DNA from: Thiomicrorhabdus sp. zzn3 | GTDB lineage: Bacteria; Pseudomonadota; Gammaproteobacteria; Thiomicrospirales; Thiomicrospiraceae | Direction: 5' to 3' | Length of the DNA stretch: 64,000 nucleotides | Assembly (NCBI RefSeq): GCF_029767755.1 | Contig: NZ_JARUQS010000003.1 | Location: 106,840-170,839, forward strand | In this document: in pieces, positions 5,661-60,586 of the stretch | How the letters are laid out: every line of letters begins with the position of its first letter | How positions within the stretch are numbered: position 1 is the first letter of the stretch | Notes under the pieces: generated by a model | What the model was told of the DNA's origin: nothing | What the model saw: the letters and a program-made list of their open reading frames with translations, nothing else | Database searches by the model: none | Translations under genes and position numbers: made by a program

Positions 5661-6746
5661 TCATTTAAGCGCCGGAATATTATTCAAATGCAATTCAAAA
5701 CTTACCTGATTGCCCTGCTGGTGGAATTCGATTTCACTGCCTACCTGCTTTAACAGCTCACGGGTTAAAAACAGCCCCAACCCCATGCCGCTTTCACTGG
5801 TGGTCCAAAACGGTTCAAACATGCGTTCGGGCTTCAAAGCCTCATTTTGAGTTTGCAGGCAGCTTCGAATGGTCACCGTCGCGCCTTCACTGCCACGGTC
5901 TTCAATCTGAATCGCTAACGGGCATTCCCCCACCGGGTGATCGCGATAATTCCCTAAAATATTTTTAAACACTTCTAACAACACATTACGCGCAATCTGC
6001 ACCCGACCCCACCCTTCGACCTGAGCTTGCAGCTGATACAAAAACAGAACTTCTTCAATCAACTCATTTAACTCGACCGCACTGGAAGCATAAAATTCGG
6101 ACAACGGCTGTTTCATTTGACGAACCGCATTCGCCGCTCTCTCGGCCATTAAGGGCAAGGTTTTTTGCAAACGCTCCATCAGCCGCAATTTATCCTCAGC
6201 GGACTCCAGGGGAGCGATCTGCTCGCTTAACAGTTGAATAAACTGGGCAATGTTTTTAACCTCATGCTGCACAAACATCTGATAACGCTCTAAACGTTTT
6301 TGCGATACCAGAATCTCTGCATGTTTATGTTCTATGTCTTGCTGCAAAATTTGGATGTAAGTATTCACCACCAATTCAAGCCAGTTTAAACGTTCTCCAC
6401 TGTATTTAGGCAAACAGAGCGTGAGTTTAAAATGCATGTCATCCCGATCAATTTGAAAATGCTGACAACTGCCAACATCAAACACCTTGCCAAACACCTG
6501 ATAGCGATGTTCTCCAAACCAATCAATATCCGCTTTTAAGCTTAAAAGGCCGGCTTGCTGCAGGACTGGCCAGGCCTGTTCAAAAAAATCCAACGCATCA
6601 CGTCCCAATTGCTGATTTAACTCATACAGTCGCGCGACGGTTTTTCTTAAACGGGTCGCCTGCCTATGGACATAATAAGCGACCGCCAAAAGACTTAAGC
6701 CAAACGTCACAAAACTTAATGCCATCCAGTCGGCAAACAGATCCAT
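5661..6746 (-). CDS. sensor histidine kinase
   Basis: A 361-residue kinase with one N-terminal membrane segment (about residues 8-28) and no obvious periplasmic sensor, so sensing is probably cytoplasmic or membrane-borne. The H-box is FVQHEVKN with His161, followed by an HATPase domain with N-box VFKNILGN and G-box GMGLGLFLTRELL. H-[DE]-x-K-N is the form seen in PrsK-type kinases. AAGGAT precedes the ATG. It lies downstream of a response regulator and three minor-pilin genes on the same strand, so it probably senses a surface or pilus-related state; that link is inferred from position only. A CAGGCCTG at 6571-6578 encodes EQAW. Confidence 0.85.
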   Translation of the reverse strand: MDLFADWMALSFVTFGLSLLAVAYYVHRQATRLRKTVARLYELNQQLGRDALDFFEQAWPVLQQAGLLSLKADIDWFGEHRYQVFGKVFDVGSCQHFQIDRDDMHFKLTLCLPKYSGERLNWLELVVNTYIQILQQDIEHKHAEILVSQKRLERYQMFVQHEVKNIAQFIQLLSEQIAPLESAEDKLRLMERLQKTLPLMAERAANAVRQMKQPLSEFYASSAVELNELIEEVLFLYQLQAQVEGWGRVQIARNVLLEVFKNILGNYRDHPVGECPLAIQIEDRGSEGATVTIRSCLQTQNEALKPERMFEPFWTTSESGMGLGLFLTRELLKQVGSEIEFHQQGNQVSFELHLNNIPALK

Positions 6747-6802: not shown

Positions 6803-6810
6803 CAGGCCTG
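6803..6810. repeat. CAGGCCTG motif, intergenic
   Basis: Copy of the dispersed palindrome in AACAGGCCTGTT context, in the 108-base gap between the response regulator stop and the kinase start. See the finding on the genome-wide motif. Confidence 0.8.
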
Positions 6811-12504: not shown

Positions 12505-12673
12505 CATTTTTTTGCAAAAAAACGACAAAATTAAACAGTGTTGTTTTTTTGCAACACTGATTTTATTCACTTCCCTCTAATGCATTTGATTAAAATCAAG
12601 TTTTCAAATACTTACAAACAGAGATTAAATTGAATTGTAGACTTTGATCTACTGTGGGATTTTCAGGCATAAA

Positions 12674-12696
12674 AAAACCCGCACAAGGCGGGTTTT
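12674..12696 (-). terminator. terminator of the DUF1640-like gene
   Basis: Nine-base arms with A4 and T4 flanks, past the stop at 12715. The 23-base hairpin is identical to the one at 12986-13008. Confidence 0.85.
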
Positions 12697-12942: not shown

Positions 12943-12985
12943 TGCAAACTCCTTCCATTAAGAACTTTTGATTGATTATAAAACA

Positions 12986-13008
12986 AAAACCCGCACAAGG
13001 CGGGTTTT
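12986..13008 (-). terminator. terminator of rplM-rpsI
   Basis: Hairpin of nine-base arms with A4/T4 flanks, 30 bases past the rpsI stop; identical in sequence to 12674-12696. Confidence 0.88.
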
Positions 13009-13037
13009 CTGTTCCAAACACGTGAATATATAAAATA

Positions 13038-13443: not shown

Positions 13444-13872
13444 TTACAACTCAAGTGCTTTAGGTTGTTGTGCCGTATGTGGGTGTTCAGTCCCCGCATA
13501 CACTTTCAGTTTTTTAAACATTGCACGCCCTAGAGGACCTTTAGGCAACATTCCTTTTACTGCAAACTCAATTGGACGCTGCGGGGCTTTATCGATCAAC
13601 TTTTCAAAGTTAGTTGATTTCAAATGACCTACATACCCAGTATGGTGGTGGTACATTTTGTCTGAACGTTTGTTACCAGTTACCGCCACTTTTTCTGCAT
13701 TGATCACAACGATGTAATCACCGCAGTCCGCATGCGGAGTATATTCAGGCTTATGCTTACCACGTAGACGTGAAGCAATTTCAGCCGCTAAACGACCCAA
13801 AGTTTTACCTTCAGCGTCCACTACATACCAGTCACGTTTGATTTCAGCTGGTTTTGCAACAAATGTTTTCAT
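13444..13872 (-). CDS. rplM: 50S ribosomal protein L13
   Basis: Full-length L13 (142 residues): [48 protein letters not shown], and [21 protein letters not shown] are all typical. First gene of the rplM-rpsI operon. In enterobacteria L13 represses its own messenger through the leader. The leader here runs through about 13873-14030, but I could not recognise a conserved fold in it. Confidence 0.98.
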
Positions 13873-14061
13873 GATTTGTTCCTAAAAATAATAAATAATC
13901 CAAATCCATAAGATTTTGATCTCGGCGCTGGGAAAGCGTTTTGAACAAAATCCACTTACTGTTTAACGGGCAATAAGGGGAAGGATTAACGAGAGGTGGA
14001 ATTATACCGATTAGTTTTTGATGTTTCAATGAGTTAGCACGATTTATTTTTCATTCCGCAT

Positions 14062-14110
14062 AAACCGAACAGGCCTGGTAGAAATCATTCTGACCAGGCC
14101 TGTTCGGTTT
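14062..14110 (-). terminator. hairpin built from two inverted CAGGCCTG motifs after ychF
   Basis: Two perfect 18-base arms (14062-14079 and 14093-14110) and a 13-base loop. Each arm contains one copy of AACAGGCCTGGT (octamers at 14070-14077 and 14095-14102). It lies 28 bases past the ychF stop and ends in a short T-run, so it should act as a terminator. An inverted pair of a dispersed motif used as a terminator is the arrangement known for uptake sequences in Neisseria. Confidence 0.75.
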
Positions 14111-14137
14111 TAATTTGTAATATGTAACTAAATTCGA

Positions 14138-15229
14138 TTACACATTAAAACGGAAGTGCATGACATCGCCATCCTGGACGATGTACTCCTTTCCTTCCAA
14201 GCGCTGTTTACCGGCGGCTTTTGCACCGGCATCGCCGTTATGCTCGATAAAATCTTCGTAAGCGGTCACTTCGGCACGGATAAAGCCTTTTTCAAAATCG
14301 GTGTGGATGACACCGGCCGCCTGCGGTGCTGTTGCGCCTTTGCGCACCGTCCACGCACGAACCTCTTTGACACCCGCAGTAAAGTAAGTTTGCAGACCCA
14401 GCAGTTCAAACCCGGCACGAATCACGCGATTCAGCCCAGGCTCTTCCTGCCCCATCTCTTCCAAAAAGGCTTCTTTATCCTCATCATCCAATTCGGCAAT
14501 TTCCGATTCAATGGCGGCACACACCGGTACCACAATGGCCCCCTGCTTTTCTGCCAACTCGGTGACCGCATCCAGATAAGGGTTATTTTCAAAACCATCT
14601 TCATTGACGTTAGCGATATACATCATTGGCTTAATGGTTAACAGGTGCAGATCGACCAACACTTTCTTATCGTCATCGCTGAGCTCAATCATGCGCACCA
14701 GAGTACCTTGCTCCACTTCTTTAAGCACCTTCTCCAGAACCGCCATGCGTGCCAATGCGCTTTTGTCGCCGCTTTTAGCCACTCGCTGCACTTTTTGCAC
14801 CGCTTTTTCCAAAGACTCCATATCCGCCAATACCAATTCGGTATTGATGATTTCAATATCCGTCAACGGATCGACCTTACCTGCCACGTGCACAATATCG
14901 TCATTATCAAAACAGCGCACCACCTGGGCAATGGCATCGGTTTCGCGAATATTAGCCAAGAACTTGTTGCCAAGCCCCTCTCCCTTGGAAGCGCCTTCTA
15001 CCAGGCCGGCAATATCCACAAACTCCATCGTGGTTGGCAAAACCCGTTCAGGCTTGACAATGTCCGCCAAGGCTTGCAAACGCGGGTCTGGAACAGGCAC
15101 CACACCGACATTCGGTTCGATCGTACAGAACGGGTAATTTGCCGACTCAATGCCGGCATTGGTCAATGCATTAAACAGAGTCGATTTACCCACATTAGGC
15201 AAACCCACGATTCCACATTTAAATCCCAT
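14138..15229 (-). CDS. ychF: Obg-family ATPase/GTPase YchF
   Basis: A 363-residue full-length YchF. The P-loop GLPNVGKS is at residues 9-16, followed by the [19 protein letters not shown] switch region, [17 protein letters not shown], and YIANVNEDG, the altered G4 motif that makes YchF prefer ATP. A TGS domain ends the protein ([15 protein letters not shown]). It binds ribosomes and affects stress responses. It follows pth directly on the same strand, a nearly universal gammaproteobacterial pair. Confidence 0.96.
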
Positions 15230-16694: not shown

Positions 16695-16702
16695 CAGGCC
16701 TG
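16695..16702. repeat. CAGGCCTG motif, intergenic
   Basis: Copy in the reverse of TTTTGAACAGGCCTGGG context, between the prs terminator and rplY. Confidence 0.8.
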
Positions 16703-16733: not shown

Positions 16734-16757
16734 AAAACGCCCCAAAAGGGGCGTTTT
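16734..16757 (-). terminator. terminator of prs
   Basis: Ten-base arms with an AAAA loop and a four-T tail, 24 bases past the prs stop. Confidence 0.85.
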
Positions 16758-22525: not shown

Positions 22526-23455
22526 ATGAAACCGAATTCGGAAGACAAGGCGGCCGGCACCATTGAGCAGACTCTCAAGTCTGCCCGATCACGCTTAACA
22601 GACAGCCAAATCAGTGACAGCCCGGGATTGGATGCCGAGCTGTTACTGGCGCATTGTCTGCAAACCTCCCGCACCTATCTGTTTACCTGGCCTGAAATAG
22701 AGTTGAACGAATCTCAGCAGGCCTGCTTCAATAGCTTGCTGCAGAAGCGATTGCAAGGTCATCCGATTGCACACCTAACCGGAGAACGTGAATTTTGGGG
22801 ATTATCCCTTAAGGTCACCCCCGACACCCTGATTCCACGACCGGATACCGAAATTCTGGTGGAAACCGCTCTGCAAAAAATTGAGCAACTTCAACAAACT
22901 GAGCAGGCCTGTTCCGATTGCCGCCCGCCTTCACCGATTCGCTTGCTGGACCTAGGCACCGGCACCGGTGCAATCGCCTTGGCCCTGAAACAGGAATGCC
23001 CGCAATGCGACGTCACCGCCTTGGACCAAAGTGGCGCCGCACTTGAAGTGGCCCGGTACAATGCGCAGATTCACAACCTTTCCATTCGTTTTTTAAAGAG
23101 CGACTGGTTTTCCGTGTTGGATGCCAATAAACGCTTTTCCGTAATCGTCTCCAATCCGCCGTACATTGAAAATAACGATCCGCATTTACAGCAGGGAGAT
23201 GTCCGTTTCGACCCGATCAGCGCCCTCACCTCTGGTGAAGATGGACTGCAAGACCTAAAATTCATTATTCAACAGGCCTGGTCGTTTTTACAGCCTGACG
23301 GCTGGCTGTTAGTTGAACACGGTTACAATCAAGCCGAAGCAGTCAGTGCGCTGTTCCAGCAGCGCGGTTATCAACAGATTGAAAACCGCTGTGACTATGG
23401 CGGCAATCCGCGGATTACCTTCGGGCAAAAACCGTGCACTTCCCAAACTGGATAA
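22526..23455 (+). CDS. prmC: release factor glutamine methyltransferase
   Basis: PrmC methylates the GGQ glutamine of RF1 and RF2. The 309-residue protein has an N-terminal helical domain, the SAM motif LDLGTGTGAIAL (141-152) and the substrate-binding NPPY at 210-213. Relative to the family, the stretch around 120-135 (LQQTEQACSDCRPPSP) is a small insertion. Three CAGGCCTG copies (22718, 22904, 23273) fall within this one gene, encoding QQAC, EQAC and QQAW; one sits in the insertion. It follows prfA by 23 bases, its usual place. Confidence 0.95.
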   Translation: MKPNSEDKAAGTIEQTLKSARSRLTDSQISDSPGLDAELLLAHCLQTSRTYLFTWPEIELNESQQACFNSLLQKRLQGHPIAHLTGEREFWGLSLKVTPDTLIPRPDTEILVETALQKIEQLQQTEQACSDCRPPSPIRLLDLGTGTGAIALALKQECPQCDVTALDQSGAALEVARYNAQIHNLSIRFLKSDWFSVLDANKRFSVIVSNPPYIENNDPHLQQGDVRFDPISALTSGEDGLQDLKFIIQQAWSFLQPDGWLLVEHGYNQAEAVSALFQQRGYQQIENRCDYGGNPRITFGQKPCTSQTG

Positions 23456-24288: not shown

Positions 24289-24312
24289 AAACTGAACAGG
24301 CCTGGTCAGTTT
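24289..24312. terminator. palindrome containing CAGGCCTG between convergent genes
   Basis: AAACTGA (24289-24295) and TCAGTTT (24306-24312) flank A-CAGGCCTG-G, giving an almost perfect 24-base palindrome between moeB (+) and motB (-). Folding would need an unpaired centre, so its action as a bidirectional terminator is uncertain. It is also the fullest copy of the dispersed motif. Confidence 0.5.
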
Positions 24313-29118: not shown

Positions 29119-30561
29119 ATGAACTGTTTTTTCAACCGCTATGCGGATCTTCCCAACCACTTTTACAGCTATGCAAGCCCCGAGCCCCTGGAGAAGGCTG
29201 TCCTTGTGCACCGCAACCCAATTCTCGAGAACGAGCTGGCTCTAACCCTGACCGAGGCCGAACTCATCCAAATGAGTTCAGGCAACCAATTTCCGCAAGG
29301 CTGTTCGCCACTGGCACAGAAATACACCGGGCACCAGTTCGGCCATTACAATCCAGATCTGGGGGACGGACGCGGGTTACTGCTTGGCCAGTGGCATGAT
29401 TCACAGCAGCAATCGTGGGATTTTCATCTTAAAGGCTGTGGGCGCACCCCCTACTCAAGACGCGGTGACGGTCGGGCCGTCTTGCGCTCGGCCATTCGCG
29501 AATACCTCGGCAGCGAAGCACTGCATGCTTTGGGCATTCCCAGCACGCGATGCCTGGCACTGTGCCACAGCGACGAACGCGTACAACGTGAACAACTGGA
29601 ACCACGGGCCAGCTATATTCGAGTGGCTAAAACTCATGTGCGTTTTGGCCACTTTGAGTGGTTGGCACAACACCAGGACAAGCAAGGCATGCAGCAACTG
29701 GCGGACTATGTCATCGAAACTGTTTATCCCGATTTAATCGCTCTGCCTGAAGCGAACCGTTACGCCCGGTTGTTGGAGACCATTTGCGCCAAGACGGCCA
29801 AGTTAATTGCCGCCTGGCAAGCGATTGGTTTCTGCCACGGCGTACTCAATACTGACAATATGTCCGTTGCTGGCGAAACCTTTGATTTCGGGCCCTTTGC
29901 TTTTATGGACGATTTCAAACTCCACTATATCTGCAACCATTCCGATTTCGAAGGTCGTTATGCCTATAGCCAGCAACCCAATATCGGCTATTGGAACTGC
30001 CAGGTACTGGCCGGCGCCTTTGGATTGCTGGTAGATGATCAGGCTCAACATAAAGCCCTCAACACCTACATCGAAACCTATAACCGCGCCTACCTAAGCA
30101 AGATGTTGGCAAAACTAGGGCTTAGCGAGACACTCAAAGGTGACAAATTGCTGGTCGCCGATCTGATTATCTTAATGGATCAATCTTCTCTGGACTTTCA
30201 CCAGTTCTTTTTAAGCTTGGCTGACTGTAAAACTGAACAGGCCTGTTTGGATTTGAAGCTCATTAAAGATACGCCTGAATGGCGCAAGTGGCTGCAAGCC
30301 TACTATCAGAGACGCGCCCAAGAACAAGACCCGCAAAACGTCAATGCGCAAATCCGTGAGAACACGCCTAAATTTGTTCTCAGGAATTACATTGCCCAAG
30401 AAGTCATCGAAGCCGCCGAACGGGGGGATTTCTCACTATTTGAACAGTGCTTTAATGCCCTTCACTCTCCTTATGTGAGAATGGAGGATATTCCACAACG
30501 TTACTATCAGCCTCCGCAAAACCCGATACAAAAAGGGATTGCGCTAAGCTGCTCATCTTAA
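29119..30561 (+). CDS. selO: protein adenylyltransferase SelO (YdiU)
   Basis: SelO is a pseudokinase-fold enzyme that transfers AMP to Ser, Thr or Tyr of target proteins in redox stress. Start at ATG 29119 (MNCFFNRYADLPNHFYSY) gives 480 residues. Motifs seen are KYTGHQFGHYNPDLGDGRGLLLG, DFHLKGCGRTPYSRRGDGRAVLRSAIREYL, and GFCHGVLNTDNMSVAGETFDFGPFAFMD with the metal-binding Asn and Asp. The C-terminus is SCSS, with the redox Cys that replaces the selenocysteine of animal SelO. A CAGGCCTG copy at 30238-30245 encodes EQAC in a variable region. Confidence 0.93.
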   Translation: MNCFFNRYADLPNHFYSYASPEPLEKAVLVHRNPILENELALTLTEAELIQMSSGNQFPQGCSPLAQKYTGHQFGHYNPDLGDGRGLLLGQWHDSQQQSWDFHLKGCGRTPYSRRGDGRAVLRSAIREYLGSEALHALGIPSTRCLALCHSDERVQREQLEPRASYIRVAKTHVRFGHFEWLAQHQDKQGMQQLADYVIETVYPDLIALPEANRYARLLETICAKTAKLIAAWQAIGFCHGVLNTDNMSVAGETFDFGPFAFMDDFKLHYICNHSDFEGRYAYSQQPNIGYWNCQVLAGAFGLLVDDQAQHKALNTYIETYNRAYLSKMLAKLGLSETLKGDKLLVADLIILMDQSSLDFHQFFLSLADCKTEQACLDLKLIKDTPEWRKWLQAYYQRRAQEQDPQNVNAQIRENTPKFVLRNYIAQEVIEAAERGDFSLFEQCFNALHSPYVRMEDIPQRYYQPPQNPIQKGIALSCSS

Positions 30562-33281: not shown

Positions 33282-33289
33282 CAGGCCTG
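33282..33289. repeat. CAGGCCTG motif, intergenic
   Basis: Copy in ACAGGCCTGGT context, ten bases past the parE stop. Confidence 0.8.
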
Positions 33290-35231: not shown

Positions 35232-35912
35232 ATGTCAGAATCATATCATATCACCATGCCAAATCGAGACTACCATCAGGAACGCCGGGATTACGAATTC
35301 GCACGCTTGGATCGTGATGCCTTGGATGCCAACCCTTTTTTACAGTTTTCCAAATGGATGGACGACGCCATCGAGCAGAAAACCATCGACCCGACCGCCA
35401 TGTCCGTGGCCACGGTGGATCAAGACGGCCAGCCGCACAGCCGTATTGTGTTGCTGAAAGCATTTGATGAAAACGGCTTCGTTTTCTATACGCATTACGA
35501 CAGTGATAAAGGGCATGAACTGGAGAGCAATGCCAAAACGGCGCTGCTGTTTTTCTGGCCGGAAATGGATCGCCAGATCCGCATCGAAGGGTGTGTGGAG
35601 AAGCTCAGCATTGCAGCGTCGGAAAGCTATTTTCACAGTCGCCCACGCGACAGTCAGCTGGCTGCGTTTATCTCCAAACAGAGTCAAGTGGTCGCGAATC
35701 GTGAAGAACTCGAACAGCGTCTTGAAGCCGCGAAAGCCCAATATGCGGAGCAGACCGTACCGCATCCGCCGCACTGGGGCGGTTACCGCGTGATTCCGCA
35801 GCGTTTTGAGTTCTGGCAAGGGCGTCCAAACCGCATGCACGACCGTTTCCGCTATGACAAAACGGCCGCAGAAACTGAACAGGCCTGGTCTATTGATCGC
35901 CTGTCACCCTAG
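35232..35912 (+). CDS. pdxH: pyridoxamine 5'-phosphate oxidase
   Basis: PdxH oxidises PNP or PMP to pyridoxal 5'-phosphate with FMN. The 226-residue protein has ATVDQDGQPHSRIVLLKAFDENGFVFYTHYDSDKG (FMN binding), FFWPEMDRQIRIEG, and the C-terminal RFEFWQGRPNRMHDRFRY and WSIDRLSP. It is divergent from parE by 46 bases. The CAGGCCTG at 35880-35887 replaces the usual variable residues just before the conserved Trp-x-Ile-Asp-Arg-Leu end and encodes EQAW. Confidence 0.96.
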   Translation: MSESYHITMPNRDYHQERRDYEFARLDRDALDANPFLQFSKWMDDAIEQKTIDPTAMSVATVDQDGQPHSRIVLLKAFDENGFVFYTHYDSDKGHELESNAKTALLFFWPEMDRQIRIEGCVEKLSIAASESYFHSRPRDSQLAAFISKQSQVVANREELEQRLEAAKAQYAEQTVPHPPHWGGYRVIPQRFEFWQGRPNRMHDRFRYDKTAAETEQAWSIDRLSP

Positions 35913-36669: not shown

Positions 36670-36691
36670 AACCCAGCAGGCCTGCTGGGTT
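36670..36691. terminator. terminator after ung, centred on CAGGCCTG
   Basis: A perfect 22-base palindrome AACCCAGCAGGCCTGCTGGGTT, with six A before it and TC-rich sequence after it, between ung (+) and plsC (-). The centre of the stem is the dispersed octamer (36677-36684). It may serve both convergent genes. Confidence 0.65.
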
Positions 36692-38063: not shown

Positions 38064-38091
38064 ATCACAAGAATTTCTGGCACATTGCCAC

Positions 38092-38099
38092 CAGGCCTG
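38092..38099. repeat. CAGGCCTG motif, intergenic
   Basis: Copy in ACCAGGCCTGTTCAA context, 13 bases past the glyS stop. Confidence 0.8.
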
Positions 38100-38111: not shown

Positions 38112-40193
38112 TTAAGACAAGCGCGAAATATCCGCTACCTGCAAGAACAACTGATAGATCTGATTCAACAGGGCCAAACGATTCAAACGCAAGGCCTCGT
38201 CTTCCGCCATCACCATGACGTCATCAAAGAAACGGTCAACATCGGCACGAATACCGGCCAGAGAGCCGATGGCCGCCACATAATCGTGCGCCGCAATCTG
38301 CTCGCTGACCGACTCGCGCAAGGCTTCCAAGGCATTCCACAAACTCTGCTCCGCCGCTTCGGCAAACAATTGCGTGTTGACGGTTTCCGGCAGCGATCCT
38401 TCCACCTTTTTCAACAGGTTGCTGATACGCTTGTTCGCCGCACTCAGACTCTCGGCCGCCTCCATTTCACTGAATTTTTGCACCGCTTGAATACGCTTGG
38501 CAAAATCCACTGGATGCGCAGGACGGCACACGCGTACCGCTTCAAACTGCTCGGCAGTTACCCCTTGATCCGCATAGTAAGCACGCAGACGGCTCACGAC
38601 AAAGTCGTAGATTTCTTCAATCAGTTCATCCGAACTTTCGACTTGTTCATGCAAAGCGATGCTCTGCTCAATCAACAGGCGCAAATCCAAATCGAGTTCA
38701 TTCTCGATCATAATGCGCAGCAGCCCCAAAGCGGCACGTCGCAAGGCAAACGGGTCTTTGTCCCCGCTTGGCACCTGACCGATCCCGTAAATCCCGGTAA
38801 TCGTATCCAGCTTATCGGCAATCGCCAACGCCTGGGCCACCGCTGAAGATGGCAAGGCGTCCCCAGCAAAACGCGGCTGATATTGCGCATCAATGGCATC
38901 TGCCACTTCCGACAACTCATTTTGTTCCTGTGCGTAGTAACGCCCCATCACCCCTTGCAGTTCCGGGAATTCACCCACCATTTCCGACATCAGGTCGCAT
39001 TTGGAAAGACGTGCGGCACGCTCGGCCACCTCGGCGGAAACGCCGAGGGACTTACCGACTTTGACCGTCAAGGTTTCCAAACGCTCGACCTTGTCGAACA
39101 AGGTGCCCAGTTTCTGCTGGAAGACTACCGTTTTCAAACGCGGCAGAAAATCTTCCAATGGCTGTTTGCGGTCTTGATCCCAGAAGAATTTCGCATCCGA
39201 CAGACGCGGGCGGATGACGCGCTCATTCCCTGACTTAACCGACTGTGGATTCGAGCTTTCGATGTTACTGATGGTAATGAACTTGGCCATTAACTTGCCA
39301 TTGGCATCGAACATATGAAAATACTTCTGGTGTCCGGCCATCGCCGAAATCAACGCTTCGGCCGGTACAGACAGGAAACTCTCATCGAAATCGCCGACTA
39401 CCGCCACCGGCCACTCATTTAACGCCGTGACTTCTTCCAGCAGGTCTTCGTCAATTTCGGCACGGCCGCCCACGCTTTGCGCCGCCGCTTCCACCTGTTG
39501 ACGAATCGCATCGGCACGTACATCAAAATCCGCCTGCACATAGCCCTGCTCACACAACGTATTAATATAATCCGCCGGCTTGGCGATGGTAATTTCCTGC
39601 GGCGCGTGGAAACGGTGTCCGCGCGTGGTGTTGGAGGTTTGATGCCCCAAGACGGTGGCGGGAACCACTTGCTCGCCCAACAACATCAACGCCCAATGCA
39701 CCGGGCGCACAAATTCCACCTCCGAACTTCCCCAACGCATGCGCTTAGGAATTGGCAGCTTCGCCAGAGATTGATTGACAATCTCGCCCAGCAATTCTGT
39801 CGCTGGCTGACCTTTCTGCTCCAGGTTGTACGCCATCCACACACCTTTATCGGTATCGATTTCAACCAGGTCTTCAACCTCGACACCGCAACCACGGGCA
39901 AACCCTTGCAAGGCTTTGGTTGGGTTGCCATCCGCGTCAAATGCCGCTTTTTTAGCCGGTCCTTTACGCTCAACTACTTTATCCGACTGCTGGATTTGCA
40001 AGGCGTCCACCTTTACAGCCAAGCGGCGCGGCGCGGCATAGACATGCACTTCACCGTGTTGCAGCTCCGCTTCTACCAGGCCTGCTGAAATGCCGTCGGC
40101 AAACGCCTGGCTCAATTTTTTTAGGGCTTTAGGAGGCAGCTCTTCGGTTCCAATCTCCACCAAAAAGTCTTCAGTCTGCTTGTGATCCGTCAT
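38112..40193 (-). CDS. glyS: glycyl-tRNA synthetase beta subunit
   Basis: The 693-residue beta subunit of the heterotetrameric bacterial GlyRS. The start DFLVEIGTEELPPKALKKLSQAF, RMRWGSSEVEFVRPVHW, the HD-like region and PFALRRAALGLLRI are typical, and a DALR-type anticodon-binding domain closes it. Its start overlaps the glyQ stop by one base. A CAGGCCTG copy at 40077-40084 falls in the N-terminal part (AGLVEAEL). Confidence 0.96.
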   Translation of the reverse strand: MTDHKQTEDFLVEIGTEELPPKALKKLSQAFADGISAGLVEAELQHGEVHVYAAPRRLAVKVDALQIQQSDKVVERKGPAKKAAFDADGNPTKALQGFARGCGVEVEDLVEIDTDKGVWMAYNLEQKGQPATELLGEIVNQSLAKLPIPKRMRWGSSEVEFVRPVHWALMLLGEQVVPATVLGHQTSNTTRGHRFHAPQEITIAKPADYINTLCEQGYVQADFDVRADAIRQQVEAAAQSVGGRAEIDEDLLEEVTALNEWPVAVVGDFDESFLSVPAEALISAMAGHQKYFHMFDANGKLMAKFITISNIESSNPQSVKSGNERVIRPRLSDAKFFWDQDRKQPLEDFLPRLKTVVFQQKLGTLFDKVERLETLTVKVGKSLGVSAEVAERAARLSKCDLMSEMVGEFPELQGVMGRYYAQEQNELSEVADAIDAQYQPRFAGDALPSSAVAQALAIADKLDTITGIYGIGQVPSGDKDPFALRRAALGLLRIMIENELDLDLRLLIEQSIALHEQVESSDELIEEIYDFVVSRLRAYYADQGVTAEQFEAVRVCRPAHPVDFAKRIQAVQKFSEMEAAESLSAANKRISNLLKKVEGSLPETVNTQLFAEAAEQSLWNALEALRESVSEQIAAHDYVAAIGSLAGIRADVDRFFDDVMVMAEDEALRLNRLALLNQIYQLFLQVADISRLS

Positions 40194-44104: not shown

Positions 44105-45283
44105 CTATCGCTCACCTTTAATGCCAGACGAACGCTGCTCCATAGGCAAATAACAAGAAGTGCCTGCGCCAGTATAAATCTGGGTTGGACGGAAAATTTT
44201 ATTGTTCTGCAACTGCTCACGCCAGTGTGCCATCCAGCCAGCCGATCTTGCTACCGCAAAAATAGGAGTGAACAGGCCTGCATCGAAGCCCATCTCTTTG
44301 TACAGAATGCCTGAGTAGAAATCGACGTTCGGATACACCCCTTTATGCGCTAACAGCTCTTCGCAAATACGTTCAACCTCCATTGCCGTTTCAAATGCCT
44401 GGCTCAAACTGCCGGCATCGCTTTTCTTTTTCAGCACTTCAGAGGACATTTTCTGCAAAATGGTGGCACGCGGATCTTTGGTCTTGTATTCGCGATGCCC
44501 CATTCCCCAGATGACTTTCTTATTCGCCAGACGGTCTTCGATATAAGCACGCGCATTTTCAGGGCTACCAATCTCATCCAACATCTCGATCACTTTCTGA
44601 TTGGCTCCACCATGCAAGGGGCCAGAAAGCGAAGCAATAGCAGATGAAATAACGGAACATGGATTCGCCAACGTTGATCCCGTTACCATGGTGGTAAAAG
44701 TAGAAGCATTAATGGTATGCTCCGCGTGCAAAATCAAACAGGCATCCAACAAACGCGCCCAGTCCGGATCCGGTTCTTCGCCGGTCACCATATACAGAAA
44801 GTTTTCCGCATACGTCAGGTCTTTACGCGGTTCAATCGGATCATAACCATTGCGCATATGCTCCCACATCGCCACAAGCGTCCCCATATGGGCAATAATT
44901 TTAACGGTTACGTCATTGATATAAGTTTGGTTTTCAGTACCGCCCTTCATATACTCGGTACTTGGATAGAAACTGGCCAGACTGGCCACCACCACTTGCA
45001 ACATGTGCATTGGATGGGTCGTTGGCGGCAGGTTTTTCATGATTTCACGGATGTTATATTTGACACGGCGATTCTCACGCAACTGATTGTCAAATAACGT
45101 CAACTCTTCCTGAGTTGGCAGCTCACCAAATAGCAACAGCAAAGTGGTTTCTTCAAACGAAGATTTCTCTGCCAATTCCATAATATCGTAGCCCCGATAG
45201 GTTAAAACACCTTCCTGACCGTCAATAAATGAAATTTTGGATTCCGTTGCCGGAACCCCTGCTAAACCTGGAATATACTGCAT
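44105..45283 (-). CDS. gltA: citrate synthase (short, dimeric-type)
   Basis: A 392-residue citrate/2-methylcitrate synthase-family enzyme. Catalytic residues appear in HAEHTINASTFT, SGPLHGGANQKVIEML, WGMGHREYKTKDPRA and DFYSGILYKEMG. It lacks the N-terminal zinc domain of the hexameric NADH-inhibited GltA, so it is the short form found in Gram-positives and many autotrophs. Methylcitrate synthase is possible, but no prp genes are near. It lies between anmK and erpA, a place usually not holding a TCA gene, and probably has its own promoter. Confidence 0.88.
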   Translation of the reverse strand: MQYIPGLAGVPATESKISFIDGQEGVLTYRGYDIMELAEKSSFEETTLLLLFGELPTQEELTLFDNQLRENRRVKYNIREIMKNLPPTTHPMHMLQVVVASLASFYPSTEYMKGGTENQTYINDVTVKIIAHMGTLVAMWEHMRNGYDPIEPRKDLTYAENFLYMVTGEEPDPDWARLLDACLILHAEHTINASTFTTMVTGSTLANPCSVISSAIASLSGPLHGGANQKVIEMLDEIGSPENARAYIEDRLANKKVIWGMGHREYKTKDPRATILQKMSSEVLKKKSDAGSLSQAFETAMEVERICEELLAHKGVYPNVDFYSGILYKEMGFDAGLFTPIFAVARSAGWMAHWREQLQNNKIFRPTQIYTGAGTSCYLPMEQRSSGIKGER

Positions 45284-47854: not shown

Positions 47855-47862
47855 CAGGCCTG
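47855..47862. repeat. CAGGCCTG motif, intergenic
   Basis: Copy in GCCAGGCCTGTTAAA context, between the GST-like gene and the protease gene. Confidence 0.8.
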
Positions 47863-47894: not shown

Positions 47895-47925
47895 ATAAAA
47901 AAGCCCGCATAAGCGGGCTCAAAAG
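47895..47925 (-). terminator. terminator of the protease gene
   Basis: Seven-base GC arms (47902-47908, 47913-47919) around ATAA, followed on the minus strand by six T, 18 bases past the stop. Confidence 0.85.
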
Positions 47926-47942: not shown

Positions 47943-50231
47943 TTAACGCAAGCGCACTGCACTGCTATTGCTGTATGCAGAAACCTCACCGCTTCGATAA
48001 GCCTGCACTTGATAGTAATAGGTTCCGGGTGTGCTCAAATTGTCAGTAAATCCAGTACTGTTCGCTGCAACCGAACCGATACGCTGATACACGATTTTAT
48101 TGCGCTCTTTGAGACCGCGCTCAATATAAAAGCCTTCTTCACTGTCACTGTTATCGGTCCAGCTCAAACTTACCTGACTGCCATTCAAGCCTGTGGACAA
48201 ATCACTTGGCGCCGTCAAAACACCCGGCGCTGGAGGTGGTGGCTCAGCCACTGCCGACTCCACTTTCACTTGAACAGCATCCGAATAGGCCTGTTTTGCC
48301 GAATTATAGGCATAAATTCGGTATTGATAGGTACCGACAGGCACACCCGTATCAACAAATTCAACCGTATTTTGTTCCAAGGTGGCAACCGTTTCAAAAG
48401 CGTATTTACCACGGACTTTCGCCGCACGTTCAACCACATAACCGGTTTCATTAGCGCTATTATCCTGCCAGCTCAAAGTGACATCCGCACCATTGACCGA
48501 TGCCGTTAAACCCGTGGGCGCGTCCAACAGGGTCGGATCGTTCACACTGATCACAACTGAATCCGTTGCCTGAGCGCCACCATTATCCGTTACCGTCAGC
48601 AGCGCATTAAACTGCCCACCGGTTTGATAGGTATGCTGTACATTTTGGCCGCTGGCCCGAGTGCCGTCGCCAAAATCCCATGCATAACTGAGGATACTGC
48701 CGTCCGTATCATAGGAGCCGGACGCATCAAAATTGACCAATAATGGCACATCGCCCGAAACAGGAGTCGCCACAAGTTGCGCGACCGGCAGCTCATTGCT
48801 CACCTCTATCATGACCGAATCAGTCGCCGTACGTCCATTGTTGTCGGTCACCGTCAACACTGCGGCAAACTGGCCGCTCTGGGTATATTCATGACTGACC
48901 TGAACTCCACTGGTTTGAGTGCCATCGCCAAAATCCCATTGATAACTGACGATACGGCCATCTGGATCATAAGAGCCGCTGGCATCAAACTGGACAGAAA
49001 GAGGTAAAGGCCCTGTCACGGCCGAACTGCTCAAACTGGCCACCGGCGCCATATTGCTATTTAAATGTAACGCATAGGCCACCGCTGCCTGCGCATTCAC
49101 CAAACCGTGTCCATAAAGCAATTCATCCCCTAAATCGGTCGCCGTATTGAACAGGCCTGCTTCGATTTCATCCGCGCTGATTTCAGGGTTCGCTGCTACC
49201 ATCAGCGCCGCTACACCTGCCGCTGCGGGAGAGGAAAAAGAGGTTCCACTGTAATAAACATAGCCATTATCTTTATAAGTGGTAAACAAGCTCACCCCTG
49301 GAGCGACCACATCGACAAACTCACCATAATTGGAAAAACCGGCTTTGACGTTATTCTCATCGGTTGCGCCCACTGCCACAAAAGAAGTGTAGTCCGGGAA
49401 AGAACCCTCCAAGGCGCCATCGTTACCTGCAGACATAAACAGCAAACCATTACGATCCCGTAAATATTGGGCCGCATCATCAATGGTGGCATATTGAATC
49501 CCACCATAACTTAAATTCACGACCCGAGCCCCCTGATCCGCAGACCAACGAATGCACTCTGCCATGGTAGAAATATAAGCCGAGCTGTTGCCATCACTGA
49601 TATTGATTCTGACGGGCAGCACGGACACATTCCAGTTCACACCCGCCACGCCGATACCGTTATTACCCACCGCGCCCAAAGTTCCGATTGTACCGCTACC
49701 GTGGCCATGCGCATCTTCCACATCAGTCGAACCGTCTTGCGCGTTATACCCAGGCAAGATCAGATTGGCCGCCAGGTCTTCATGATCGCTATCCACGCCG
49801 GTATCACATACCGCCACCCGAACCGAAGCCTGTCCCACGGCTTGCTCCCATGCTTGCGGTGTATTCATTGCACTGTGCTGCCACTGCGAAGCGAACCCGG
49901 GATCATCTGGCGTCAGCGTCAAGGGCACCTCATAATCCGGTTCAGCAAACTTGACCAGCCCACTGGTTTCAAGCAGTTTAGCGATCGCCTTCTCTCGCCC
50001 AACCGAATCGAAATGAGCAATATGCAGATTCAAATTTTCAAGCACGCGCTCCTGTAACAGCCCCTGACTTCTAAGCAGCGCATTCAATCCTTTCAATTCA
50101 GATGGGGCTGCATCCTCTTTTGGCTTATACAGAACGGTTCCCGGACGTATTTGATCCGCCATGGCCATCGGTACTGCCAACGCGCCGACTAACAACCCAG
50201 ATAACATAATCGCTTTAACAGGGGCAGACAT
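47943..50231 (-). CDS. secreted subtilisin-like protease with two PKD and two FN3 domains
   Basis: From ATG 50231 (GAGGAG upstream) the protein has 762 residues. A signal peptide (about 1-25) precedes an inhibitor-type propeptide (about 28-105). The S8 domain has catalytic Asp143, His177 (HGHGSGTIG), oxyanion Asn270 and Ser331 (GTSFSSPAAAG). Two PKD repeats follow (each with FDASGSYD-DG and WDFGDGT), then two fibronectin III domains up to the C-terminus. It is an exported, probably cell-surface or secreted protease. There is no sortase, PEP-CTERM or autotransporter end, so type II secretion is likely. A CAGGCCTG at 49152-49159 lies inside. Confidence 0.9.
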   Translation of the reverse strand: MSAPVKAIMLSGLLVGALAVPMAMADQIRPGTVLYKPKEDAAPSELKGLNALLRSQGLLQERVLENLNLHIAHFDSVGREKAIAKLLETSGLVKFAEPDYEVPLTLTPDDPGFASQWQHSAMNTPQAWEQAVGQASVRVAVCDTGVDSDHEDLAANLILPGYNAQDGSTDVEDAHGHGSGTIGTLGAVGNNGIGVAGVNWNVSVLPVRINISDGNSSAYISTMAECIRWSADQGARVVNLSYGGIQYATIDDAAQYLRDRNGLLFMSAGNDGALEGSFPDYTSFVAVGATDENNVKAGFSNYGEFVDVVAPGVSLFTTYKDNGYVYYSGTSFSSPAAAGVAALMVAANPEISADEIEAGLFNTATDLGDELLYGHGLVNAQAAVAYALHLNSNMAPVASLSSSAVTGPLPLSVQFDASGSYDPDGRIVSYQWDFGDGTQTSGVQVSHEYTQSGQFAAVLTVTDNNGRTATDSVMIEVSNELPVAQLVATPVSGDVPLLVNFDASGSYDTDGSILSYAWDFGDGTRASGQNVQHTYQTGGQFNALLTVTDNGGAQATDSVVISVNDPTLLDAPTGLTASVNGADVTLSWQDNSANETGYVVERAAKVRGKYAFETVATLEQNTVEFVDTGVPVGTYQYRIYAYNSAKQAYSDAVQVKVESAVAEPPPPAPGVLTAPSDLSTGLNGSQVSLSWTDNSDSEEGFYIERGLKERNKIVYQRIGSVAANSTGFTDNLSTPGTYYYQVQAYRSGEVSAYSNSSAVRLR

Positions 50232-53951: not shown

Positions 53952-53959
53952 CAGGCCTG
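53952..53959. repeat. CAGGCCTG motif between obgE and proB
   Basis: Copy in TTAACAGGCCTGGTTAA context (minus strand), starting at the base after the obgE TAA and lying just upstream of the proB ribosome binding site. Confidence 0.8.
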
Positions 53960-59542: not shown

Positions 59543-60586
59543 TTAGCGATATCCCATACGTTGCATCAATCTAACCGCATCGGCTTGCAGGGCTCCCACC
59601 TTTTGCAGGTTCAGGTCATCCTGCTTAAAACGACCCCATTTGGCAACCAAAGGATCCGCTGGCACCTCTGGATTCGCCGGATACTCTTTATTTAGAGAGG
59701 CAAACAGGCCTTGCGCTTGTTCACTCACCAGCCAACTCAATAGCTTATTCGCCAGCTCTGGATGCTTGGCATGTTTTAAAACTCCTGCACCGGAGACATT
59801 CACGTGGGTTCCGGTACTGTTCTGGTTCGCCCAAAATAGCTTCAGTGCCACGTCCGGTTGCTTTTCCTGCAAGCGCCCAAAGTAATAGGTGTTTACCAAA
59901 CCGACATCGCACTGTCCCGCCAAAATAGCATCCATGATATGCGAATCTTTTGCCATAGGGGCTGACGCCAAATTACTCACCCAGCCTTTTACCATCTGTT
60001 CGGTTTTATCCTGACCATTGTGAGCCAATAATGCAGATACCAGTGACTTGGTATACACTTTTTTTGCCGTGCGCAAACACAAACGCCCTTTCCATTGAGG
60101 CTCTGCTAATGCTTCATAAGAGGACAATTCATCCGGCTTCACCCGTTCCGTGCTATACACAATCGTTCGGGCACGAATCGACAGGCCTGTCCATAACCCT
60201 TGAGGATCACGTAAATGCGCCGGAATGGCTTTAGCAACCTGCTGAGTTTGAATCGGCTGAAACAAGTCTTGTGATGCCGCATACCACAGATTACCCGCAT
60301 CTACCGTCATCAACACATCCGCCGGCGTTGCACGGCCTTCCGCTTTAACTCGTTCAATTAACGCATTGTCTTTGCCGGTTAAATAGGAAACCTTAATACC
60401 GGTTTCTTTGGTAAAGGCATCAAAAACCGGTTTAATCAAATGCTCCTTACGCGAACTGTATACCACAACCTCAGGCTCATCGGCCGCTTGAGCCGATACA
60501 GCAAGTGCACTTAAACTCATCACGGAAGCCGCACTCCACATAAATAGCGCGCTTAATATACCGGAGAACCACTGCTTTAATTTCAC
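59543..60586 (-). CDS. periplasmic Fe(3+)-binding protein (FbpA/FutA-like)
   Basis: A 347-residue class II solute-binding protein. The signal peptide is cut after AQA (about residue 34). The mature start EPEVVVYSSRKEHLIKPVFDAF and the Tyr pair in LVNTYYFGRL, which ligates ferric iron in the FbpA/FutA family, support an iron substrate. Other typical stretches are ADVLMTVDAGNLW and NVSGAGVLKHAKH. A CAGGCCTG at 60182-60189 encodes TGL. Confidence 0.92.
   Translation of the reverse strand: MKLKQWFSGILSALFMWSAASVMSLSALAVSAQAADEPEVVVYSSRKEHLIKPVFDAFTKETGIKVSYLTGKDNALIERVKAEGRATPADVLMTVDAGNLWYAASQDLFQPIQTQQVAKAIPAHLRDPQGLWTGLSIRARTIVYSTERVKPDELSSYEALAEPQWKGRLCLRTAKKVYTKSLVSALLAHNGQDKTEQMVKGWVSNLASAPMAKDSHIMDAILAGQCDVGLVNTYYFGRLQEKQPDVALKLFWANQNSTGTHVNVSGAGVLKHAKHPELANKLLSWLVSEQAQGLFASLNKEYPANPEVPADPLVAKWGRFKQDDLNLQKVGALQADAVRLMQRMGYR

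Follow-up and report, generated by a model that had tools for sequence, protein, structure and literature searches.

Our analysis of the region downstream of ychF indicates that the hairpin found there is best seen as a single instance of a self-DNA motif that has a palindromic centre, forms dialects and is family-wide. The Neisseriaceae and Pasteurellaceae are known to have uptake tags, and on balance the motif is probably an uptake-signal-like tag of self-DNA in a third bacterial family, with two copies at ychF forming a hairpin at the 3' end of the gene. The pattern matches the DNA uptake sequence (DUS) and the uptake signal sequence (USS) best. The original prediction had described the structure as a terminator stem and proposed an uptake-like interpretation; the sequence comparisons below strengthen that interpretation, which is still unproven, and the terminator label is only half earned.

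The window, that is, the whole 64,000-nucleotide stretch of DNA analysed here, is part of contig 3 of a 2.37-Mb genome (2,366,806 bp). On its minus strand, ychF (14138-15229, an ORF of 363 aa with matches to PF06071, 1.3e-40, and PF01926) is followed downstream by rplM, the gene for ribosomal protein L13 (13444-13872, minus strand; PF00572, 2.3e-49). The stem starts 27 bases past the ychF stop codon. Its left arm (14062-14079, plus strand) and right arm (14093-14110, minus strand), read directly from the sequence, are perfect reverse complements over 18 bp. Each carries AACAGGCCTGGT at its inward end (14068-14079 and 14093-14104), with the core CAGGCCTG at 14070-14077 and 14095-14102, so that the two facing copies and the perfect 18-bp stem that had been predicted for 14062-14110 are confirmed. 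The copies do lie on opposite strands, as had been claimed, but CAGGCCTG is itself a palindrome and the orientation of AACAGGCCTGGT therefore resides solely in its outer two bases. When the RNA of the ychF strand was folded, 22 pairs were predicted at -38.1 kcal/mol, namely the 18 of the stem and 4 more past a bulge; the extra pairs lie within the 13-nt spacer (14080-14092) and leave a loop of 4. None of 200 shuffled sequences was as stable in RNA folding (z -9.3), and an Rfam search of this ychF locus gave no match.

The ychF hairpin is a GC-rich stem-loop at the 3' end of a gene, as in an intrinsic terminator, but no stem with at least five T in the following eight bases was found between 13850 and 14200 on either strand. 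In the gap between the hairpin and rplM, a consensus scan found a promoter-like TTGAAA-17-TATAAT (14001-14029, minus strand; 11 of 12 consensus bases), which counts as a consensus match only, since shuffled versions of 13850-14200 average 1.2 such sites. Lying between ychF and this promoter-like site, the hairpin is placed where transcripts of ychF would be expected to stop and those of rplM to start.

The motif is highly repeated. Allowing up to one mismatch, AACAGGCCTGGT gave 19 matches at 17 places in the window, 7 of them exact, where 0.31 would be expected. The genome holds 156 exact copies of the 12-mer (none of the reversed pattern) and 859 copies of the core CAGGCCTG (21 of the reversed word), and like DUS and USS the motif is therefore present in hundreds of copies, far above expectation. 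In a 464-kb sample made up of 20 spaced stretches and the window, the core was found 159 times against 11-13 expected, and the next palindromic 8-mer 31 times. AACAGGCCTGGT accounts for 30 of these 159 copies and the full palindrome AACAGGCCTGTT for 23. The spread is even, with 4-11 copies per 20-kb stretch (n = 20; mean 6.85, variance 4.45).

Besides the ychF pair, pattern searches of the window placed cores at 266-273, 1839-1846, 6571-6578, 22718-22725, 22904-22911, 23273-23280 (within AACAGGCCTGGT), 30238-30245 (within AACAGGCCTGTT), 35880-35887 (within AACAGGCCTGGT), 40077-40084, 44273-44280, 49152-49159 and 60182-60189. Further cores are intergenic and lie at 6803-6810 (a AACAGGCCTGTT palindrome), 16695-16702, 24297-24304 (within AACAGGCCTGGT), 33282-33289, 36677-36684, 38092-38099 (AACAGGCCTGGT on the minus strand), 47855-47862 and 53952-53959 (AACAGGCCTGGT on the minus strand).

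Pooled flanks approximate AAACTGAA-CAGGCCTG-TTCAGTTT, with conservation fading about 9 bases out. The motif spans approximately 24 bp, in the order A/T tract, 5 bp, palindromic core, 5 bp, A/T tract, and the tracts are 6-8 bp beyond the core, roughly one helical turn away from its centre. A fixed, oriented 12-mer was rejected as a description: A at position -1 occurs on both, one or no sides in 29, 83 and 47 copies, compared with 31, 79 and 49 if the sides were independent, a distribution in which this species shows no preference for either orientation.

Copies were assigned with our own longest-ORF script (at least 80 aa, or 60 aa for the placement of pairs) rather than from curated genes, which gave 92 coding and 67 intergenic copies among the 159, with the same symmetric flanks in both. 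A or T is found at positions +/-6 in 0.82-0.95 of the 88 coding copies (of 92) that the codon-matched control took in, versus 0.41-0.68 of the controls at the same offsets. By reading frame the coding copies number 45, 45 and 2. The peptides encoded at 91 coding copies are QAW (26), AGL (22), QAC (18), TGL (15) and others (10), and Q-A-W or Q-A-C is thus encoded by 44 of the 91. Because the A/T tracts and flanks are retained in coding copies, the motif is kept as DNA, with the proteins accommodating it; its sequence pattern indicates maintenance at the DNA level both in genes and between them. In coding copies the flanks of the two sides vary independently of each other.

Intergenic copies are concentrated at gene ends. 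The 67 intergenic copies lie in the 9.4% of the sequence that our ORF script leaves between genes, approximately seven times the coding density. Gaps flanked by two ORFs hold 63 of them; 51 of these have a gene 3' end no more than 70 nt away (39% expected, p 1.2e-11), and only 2 occupy divergent gaps, where 23.5% would be expected. Pairing of the flanks across the core exceeded that of reshuffled flanks for intergenic copies in six of ten genomes (33 of 1000 reshufflings or fewer) but not in G001, G007, G012 and G029, and for coding copies it did so in none of the ten. Hairpin formation is selected at gene 3' ends.

The inverted pair after ychF is not the only one in the genome. Exact pairs of the form AACAGGCCTGGT-N0-30-ACCAGGCCTGTT occur seven times (reversed control, 0), where about 0.08 would be expected if copies were independent (85 x 71 x 31 / 2,366,806), and pairs of CAGGCCTG cores with 2-32 bases between them occur 37 times (control, 0; about 10 expected on independence). 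Locus sequence was available for 19 of these 37. All 19 fall between genes, 18 of them next to the 3' end of a gene and the other in a divergent gap. The original prediction had called for a search for further pairs and for their clustering at the 3' ends of genes, as is the case for DUS and USS, and both are borne out. The spacing of the 37 is non-random, the core-to-core distance being 25 bp in 12 and 19 bp in 7. In the pairs at 25 bp, which have a 17-nt spacer, the first inner base is complementary in 10 of 12, versus 3.9 when shuffled (0 of 2000 as high), a coupling which indicates that hairpins are selected. Over the 32 pairs long enough for this comparison (the other 5 are too short) the figure is 20 versus 8.5, while the 19-bp pairs are not coupled (5 of 7 versus 3.8).

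REP elements with RAYT are also repeated palindromes, and a mobile hairpin of this kind, spread by a RAYT (Y1) transposase, would account for repeated palindromes and for the preferred spacings of 25 bp (12 of 37) and 19 bp (7 of 37). Twelve of the 18 motif-bearing congeners have Y1_Tnp (PF01797). Motif-poor ones have it too, however, and it was found neither in the source genome nor in five other motif-bearing congeners; in addition, the common unit is only about 24 bp and over half of the copies are within genes. An origin of this kind is very improbable and, with no Y1 enzyme found in the source genome, was rejected.

The bias towards gene ends could be explained if the motif were primarily a family of transcription-terminator stems. 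The 51 of 63 copies near 3' ends, the near absence from divergent gaps, the flank pairing in six of ten genomes, the coupled inner bases of the pairs and the -38 kcal/mol hairpin at ychF are all consistent with this. Against it, 92 of the 159 copies are in genes and have the same flanks. Nor is a directional U-tract found: at 30 tandem copies near 3' ends, the longest run of T downstream averages 2.87 and the longest run of A upstream 2.80. A search of positions 1-60000 of the window gave 96 terminator-like sites, most of which are chance occurrences, as shuffled sequences yield approximately 72. None of the 96 contains any of the 21 core copies in this range; the one contact is a 3-base overlap of the core at 38092-38099 with a weak site at 38077-38094. 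Two copies adjoin ordinary U-tract terminator-like sites, the core at 16695-16702 being about 30 bp from the site at 16734-16757 and that at 47855-47862 about 40 bp from the site at 47901-47920. Termination was therefore rejected as a general function, and we consider the terminator explanation as a whole quite improbable. Since flanks and inner bases pair at gene ends while the U-tract is absent, the hairpins are selected there and termination is unlikely to have made the motif; as its main purpose, termination is disfavoured. The description of the ychF structure as a terminator stem stands as far as the strong GC-rich hairpin at the 3' end is concerned and falls short on the U-tract, which is missing there and has no direction at single copies. 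Two similar hairpins at 12672-12694 and 12985-13009 (AAACCCGC..GCGGGTTTT, with T-rich ends) have the look of ordinary terminators in this genome, and the second is among the terminator-like sites that the search picked up.

The distribution of the motif among relatives was assessed by counting CAGGCCTG in 62 genomes from seven genera of one family. More than 200 copies were found in 32 of the 62, made up of 15 of 32 in the source's own genus, 7 of 11 in g3, 9 of 9 in g6 and 1 of 1 in g7, compared with 0 of 9 in g2, g4 and g5 together. Dialects were examined in 100 kb from each of 16 relatives (78,675 bases for G009), so that "none" means none seen in the sampled stretches. The CAGGCCTG dialect, with A, G or C at -1 and A the commonest, is that of the source genome (G000), G004 and G027, and ACCAGGCCTGGT that of G001, G002, G006, G008, G012 and G029. 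G007 has ACCGGCCGGT, and CMGGCCGG is found there 1229/1227 times against 28/27 for the control. The sister species G003 has the non-palindromic AACAGGCCGGGT (CMGGCCGG 623/668, control 129/126), flanked by a single A/T tract (40 sites). CMGGCCGG also points to G017 (365/368 versus 66/74); elsewhere it reaches up to about 2-3 times the control, and in several genomes without that dialect it is found at about twice the control (131/120 versus 69/78 in the source genome). No dialect motif was seen in the sampled stretches of G005, G009, G010, G011, G030 and G031. All four dialects seen have GGCC in common, a shared core such as DUS and USS have. The non-palindromic, one-tract dialect of G003 is a natural case for studying the gain or loss of symmetry. 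In the samples of two other relatives, different repeats were observed: a word containing CCCCCGCGGG 34 times in 100 kb of G001 (L187-L191), perhaps a CRISPR array, and CAGCTAAGAA-type words about 97 times in 100 kb of G031 (L279-L283), possibly a long repetitive coding sequence.

When mapped on a tree of YchF from 30 species, the five dialect labels require 7 changes, versus 14.1 when shuffled, and the 14 motif-poor rows require 3; here "none" for G018-G021 and G023-G026 is based on CAGGCCTG and CMGGCCGG counts alone, with other dialects unsampled, the labels of G013, G014, G015, G022 and G028 come from 12-mer counts, and G016 and G017 are outside the tree. The sister relationship of G000 and G003 is fully supported. 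Among the best named YchF matches listed, CAGGCCTG was absent from 4.5 kb of a Thiotrichales MAG (83% identity in YchF) and from 4.7 kb of Sulfurivirga caldicuralii (81%).

Another explanation is a highly iterated palindrome (HIP-like), in which a DNA methylase and biased repair create and keep the copies and dialects follow methylase specificity. The core is a palindromic, highly iterated, GC-rich 8-mer with several hundred copies and with alternates in relatives, and single-base deviants are skewed to its first and last bases (TAGGCCTG, 18 versus 4.3 expected; GAGGCCTG, 19 versus 7.1), as they are for HIP1 in the available text of PMC4390886. The source genome has one domain of the N6/N4 methylase family PF01555, in an open frame of 1125 aa. 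Nevertheless, PF01555 was found in only 5 of the 18 motif-bearing congeners and was absent in 13, the C5 methylase family PF00145 passed the cut-off in 7 (G013 has a weak match below it) and was absent over cut-off in 11, the source genome included, and 9 of the 18 had neither of these two families, the ones searched, over the cut-off. The model based on a C5 methylase was rejected, as no such enzyme was found in the source genome. The G003 dialect is non-palindromic with a single-sided A/T tract, and neither a 7-fold higher density between genes nor A/T tracts roughly one helical turn from the centre belong to the HIP picture as far as the available text of that paper presents it (PMC4390886). 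We regard a HIP-like origin as rather unlikely.

The ychF end was compared over 150 nt past the stop codon in 30 congeners. A CAGGCCTG pair is present in G000, G004 and G022, and in the sister G003 AACAGGCCGGGT is found twice, inverted, which is the same device in that species' own dialect. Single copies were found in G027, G001, G006 and G008. Within these 150 nt, 22 of the 30 loci have no copy, 8 of them from motif-bearing species (G002, G007, G012, G013, G014, G015, G028 and G029). With copies at 8 of 30 ends and none at 22, the site is recurrent and not fixed.

A structured element of about 125 nt follows ychF in 7 of the 30 loci (L200, L202, L203, L208, L211, L220 at 1362-1497 on the minus strand and L221 at 2593-2728 on the plus strand). 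A long stem encloses an inner hairpin that resembles AAATGatCaCTTAC-loop-GTAAGCTCaCATTT. Of 34 predicted pairs, 18 have both partners changed in one sequence or more, and the covariation term is slightly unfavourable (0.35). Rfam searches of 3 of the 7 loci gave no match to the element, only tRNAs being matched in those three relatives, and a regular expression for the inner hairpin, which would miss 1 of the 7 known copies, found none elsewhere in samples of 17 genomes.

Contig C2 of G001 is a 96.8-kb plasmid with Rep3, ParA/ParB-like and TraN proteins. It carries 6 cores in 80 of its 97 kb, where 44 would be expected from the sampled chromosome (55 in 100 kb); this is an approximately 7-fold depletion, on one plasmid only. 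Other minor contigs, which may be chromosomal, are undepleted (G013:C2, 19 in 60 kb; G002:C5, 15 in 60 kb; G002:C4, 6 in 20 kb). Of the plasmid stretches L299-L302, ten proteins of L299 were identified by search, and these include an F-type T4SS TraN, Rep3 and RecT as well as a methylase of EcoRI type and a GmrSD-like nuclease.

A motif that is rich on the chromosome and poor on one plasmid could also be bound inside the cell by a protein that organises the chromosome or takes part in repair, with dialects that follow that protein. A dimeric binder would explain the palindrome, and both the symmetric 24-bp motif, with an A/T tract roughly one helical turn to either side of the centre, and the independence of the flank sides in coding copies fit. 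We know of no nucleoid-site system with such dialect turnover between sister species, nor of one absent from so many congeners, and the one-sided motif of G003 speaks against a strict dimer. This explanation is unlikely.

Competence genes were considered through ComEC, which was found in the source genome and in 28 of 32 congeners overall, comprising 16 of the 18 that bear the motif and 12 of the 14 that are motif-poor. Competence is thus possible, yet the presence of ComEC does not separate the two groups. G030, though 99% complete, has no ComEC match and no motif seen, a possible joint loss.

As a self-DNA tag, the motif would serve natural transformation within the family, bound by a putative surface receptor such as a minor pilin, and dialects would follow changes in that receptor. 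Copies collect at gene 3' ends, where paired ones would further be kept as strong hairpins. Such hairpins might then bound transcripts, here between ychF and the promoter of rplM, either because RNA polymerase stalls at them or because they protect the ends of RNAs; this step is put forward more weakly than the self-tag itself. Dialects, A/T tracts in coding copies and depletion from one plasmid all favour the uptake-like part of the original prediction, and the palindrome-centred form, unlike the usual DUS or USS, does not. Also counting against an uptake tag are the palindromic core in most dialects, the non-discriminating ComEC, the PF01555 domain in the source genome, a depletion that concerns one plasmid, and the 22 of 30 ychF ends without a copy, 8 of them in motif-bearing species. 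A fuller proposal, that Thiomicrospiraceae-like sulfur oxidisers have their own palindromic DNA-uptake tag in at least four dialects, one of them asymmetric, with inverted pairs at gene ends that rewrite both arms as the dialect changes, is tentative, the chances lying slightly against it. Being palindromic, such a tag would be readable from either strand.

If the self-tag reading is true, the DUS/USS principle would have an independent example among bacteria that are not host-associated, and a palindromic, dialect-forming tag in free-living chemolithoautotrophs would bear on why tags arise at all. The sister species G000 and G003, which differ in dialect, could reveal how receptor and tag change together, and the paired tags raise the question of whether hairpins at 3' ends are causal or a by-product. 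If the motif is not an uptake tag, it is a DNA-level motif with many copies and dialects that is still without a known reader.

No earlier report of the motif was found in the literature, which was screened largely by title and abstract, with most subscription journals outside the coverage. Compared with REP/RAYT systems, the likeness lies in the repeated palindromes and in the placed pairs, all of which are outside genes here, and the difference in the many coding copies, the much shorter unit and a Y1 transposase that was not found. HIP1 of cyanobacteria is described as an iterated GC-rich palindromic 8-mer with alternates in relatives and outer-base deviations (Elhai 2015, PMC4390886). The motif shares all of these, and palindromic extensions, with HIP1 in the available text; it differs in that no C5 methylase was found in the source genome, and in its A/T-tract flanks, a strong 3'-end bias and one non-palindromic dialect.

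For the USS of Pasteurellaceae, the accessible text describes a short core with separated A/T-rich tracts, two dialects and frequent inverted pairs (PMC12616744), and in each of these respects the motif is similar. The USS is, however, non-palindromic with A/T tracts downstream only, whereas here they are on both sides, or on one side in G003. Bakkali argued against DUS as terminators on the grounds that only about 10% are inverted repeats, that many are in genes and that they are not palindromes (PMC1939737, available portion); the first two points, few inverted repeats and many copies in genes, hold here, and the third does not. DUS is a known uptake tag of Neisseriaceae, the present motif a putative one. 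The motif has another sequence, a palindromic core as the norm and A/T tracts outside the core, and its density is about one per 2.8 kb (859 in 2.37 Mb), compared with about one per 1.15 kb for DUS in meningococci in the parts of PMC3630211 and PMC2397512 available. A likeness to the palindromic form is seen in Simonsiella, which has 1294 overlapping DUS in dyad symmetry according to the same partial texts (PMC3630211, PMC2397512). In the available text, DUS have many copies in and between genes, close inverted pairs that are linked with terminators, and dialects within the Neisseriaceae with a shared inner core (Frye 2013, PMC3630211; Treangen 2008, PMC2397512). The motif described here is likewise found in genes and between them, forms inverted pairs and has dialects within its family that share a core.
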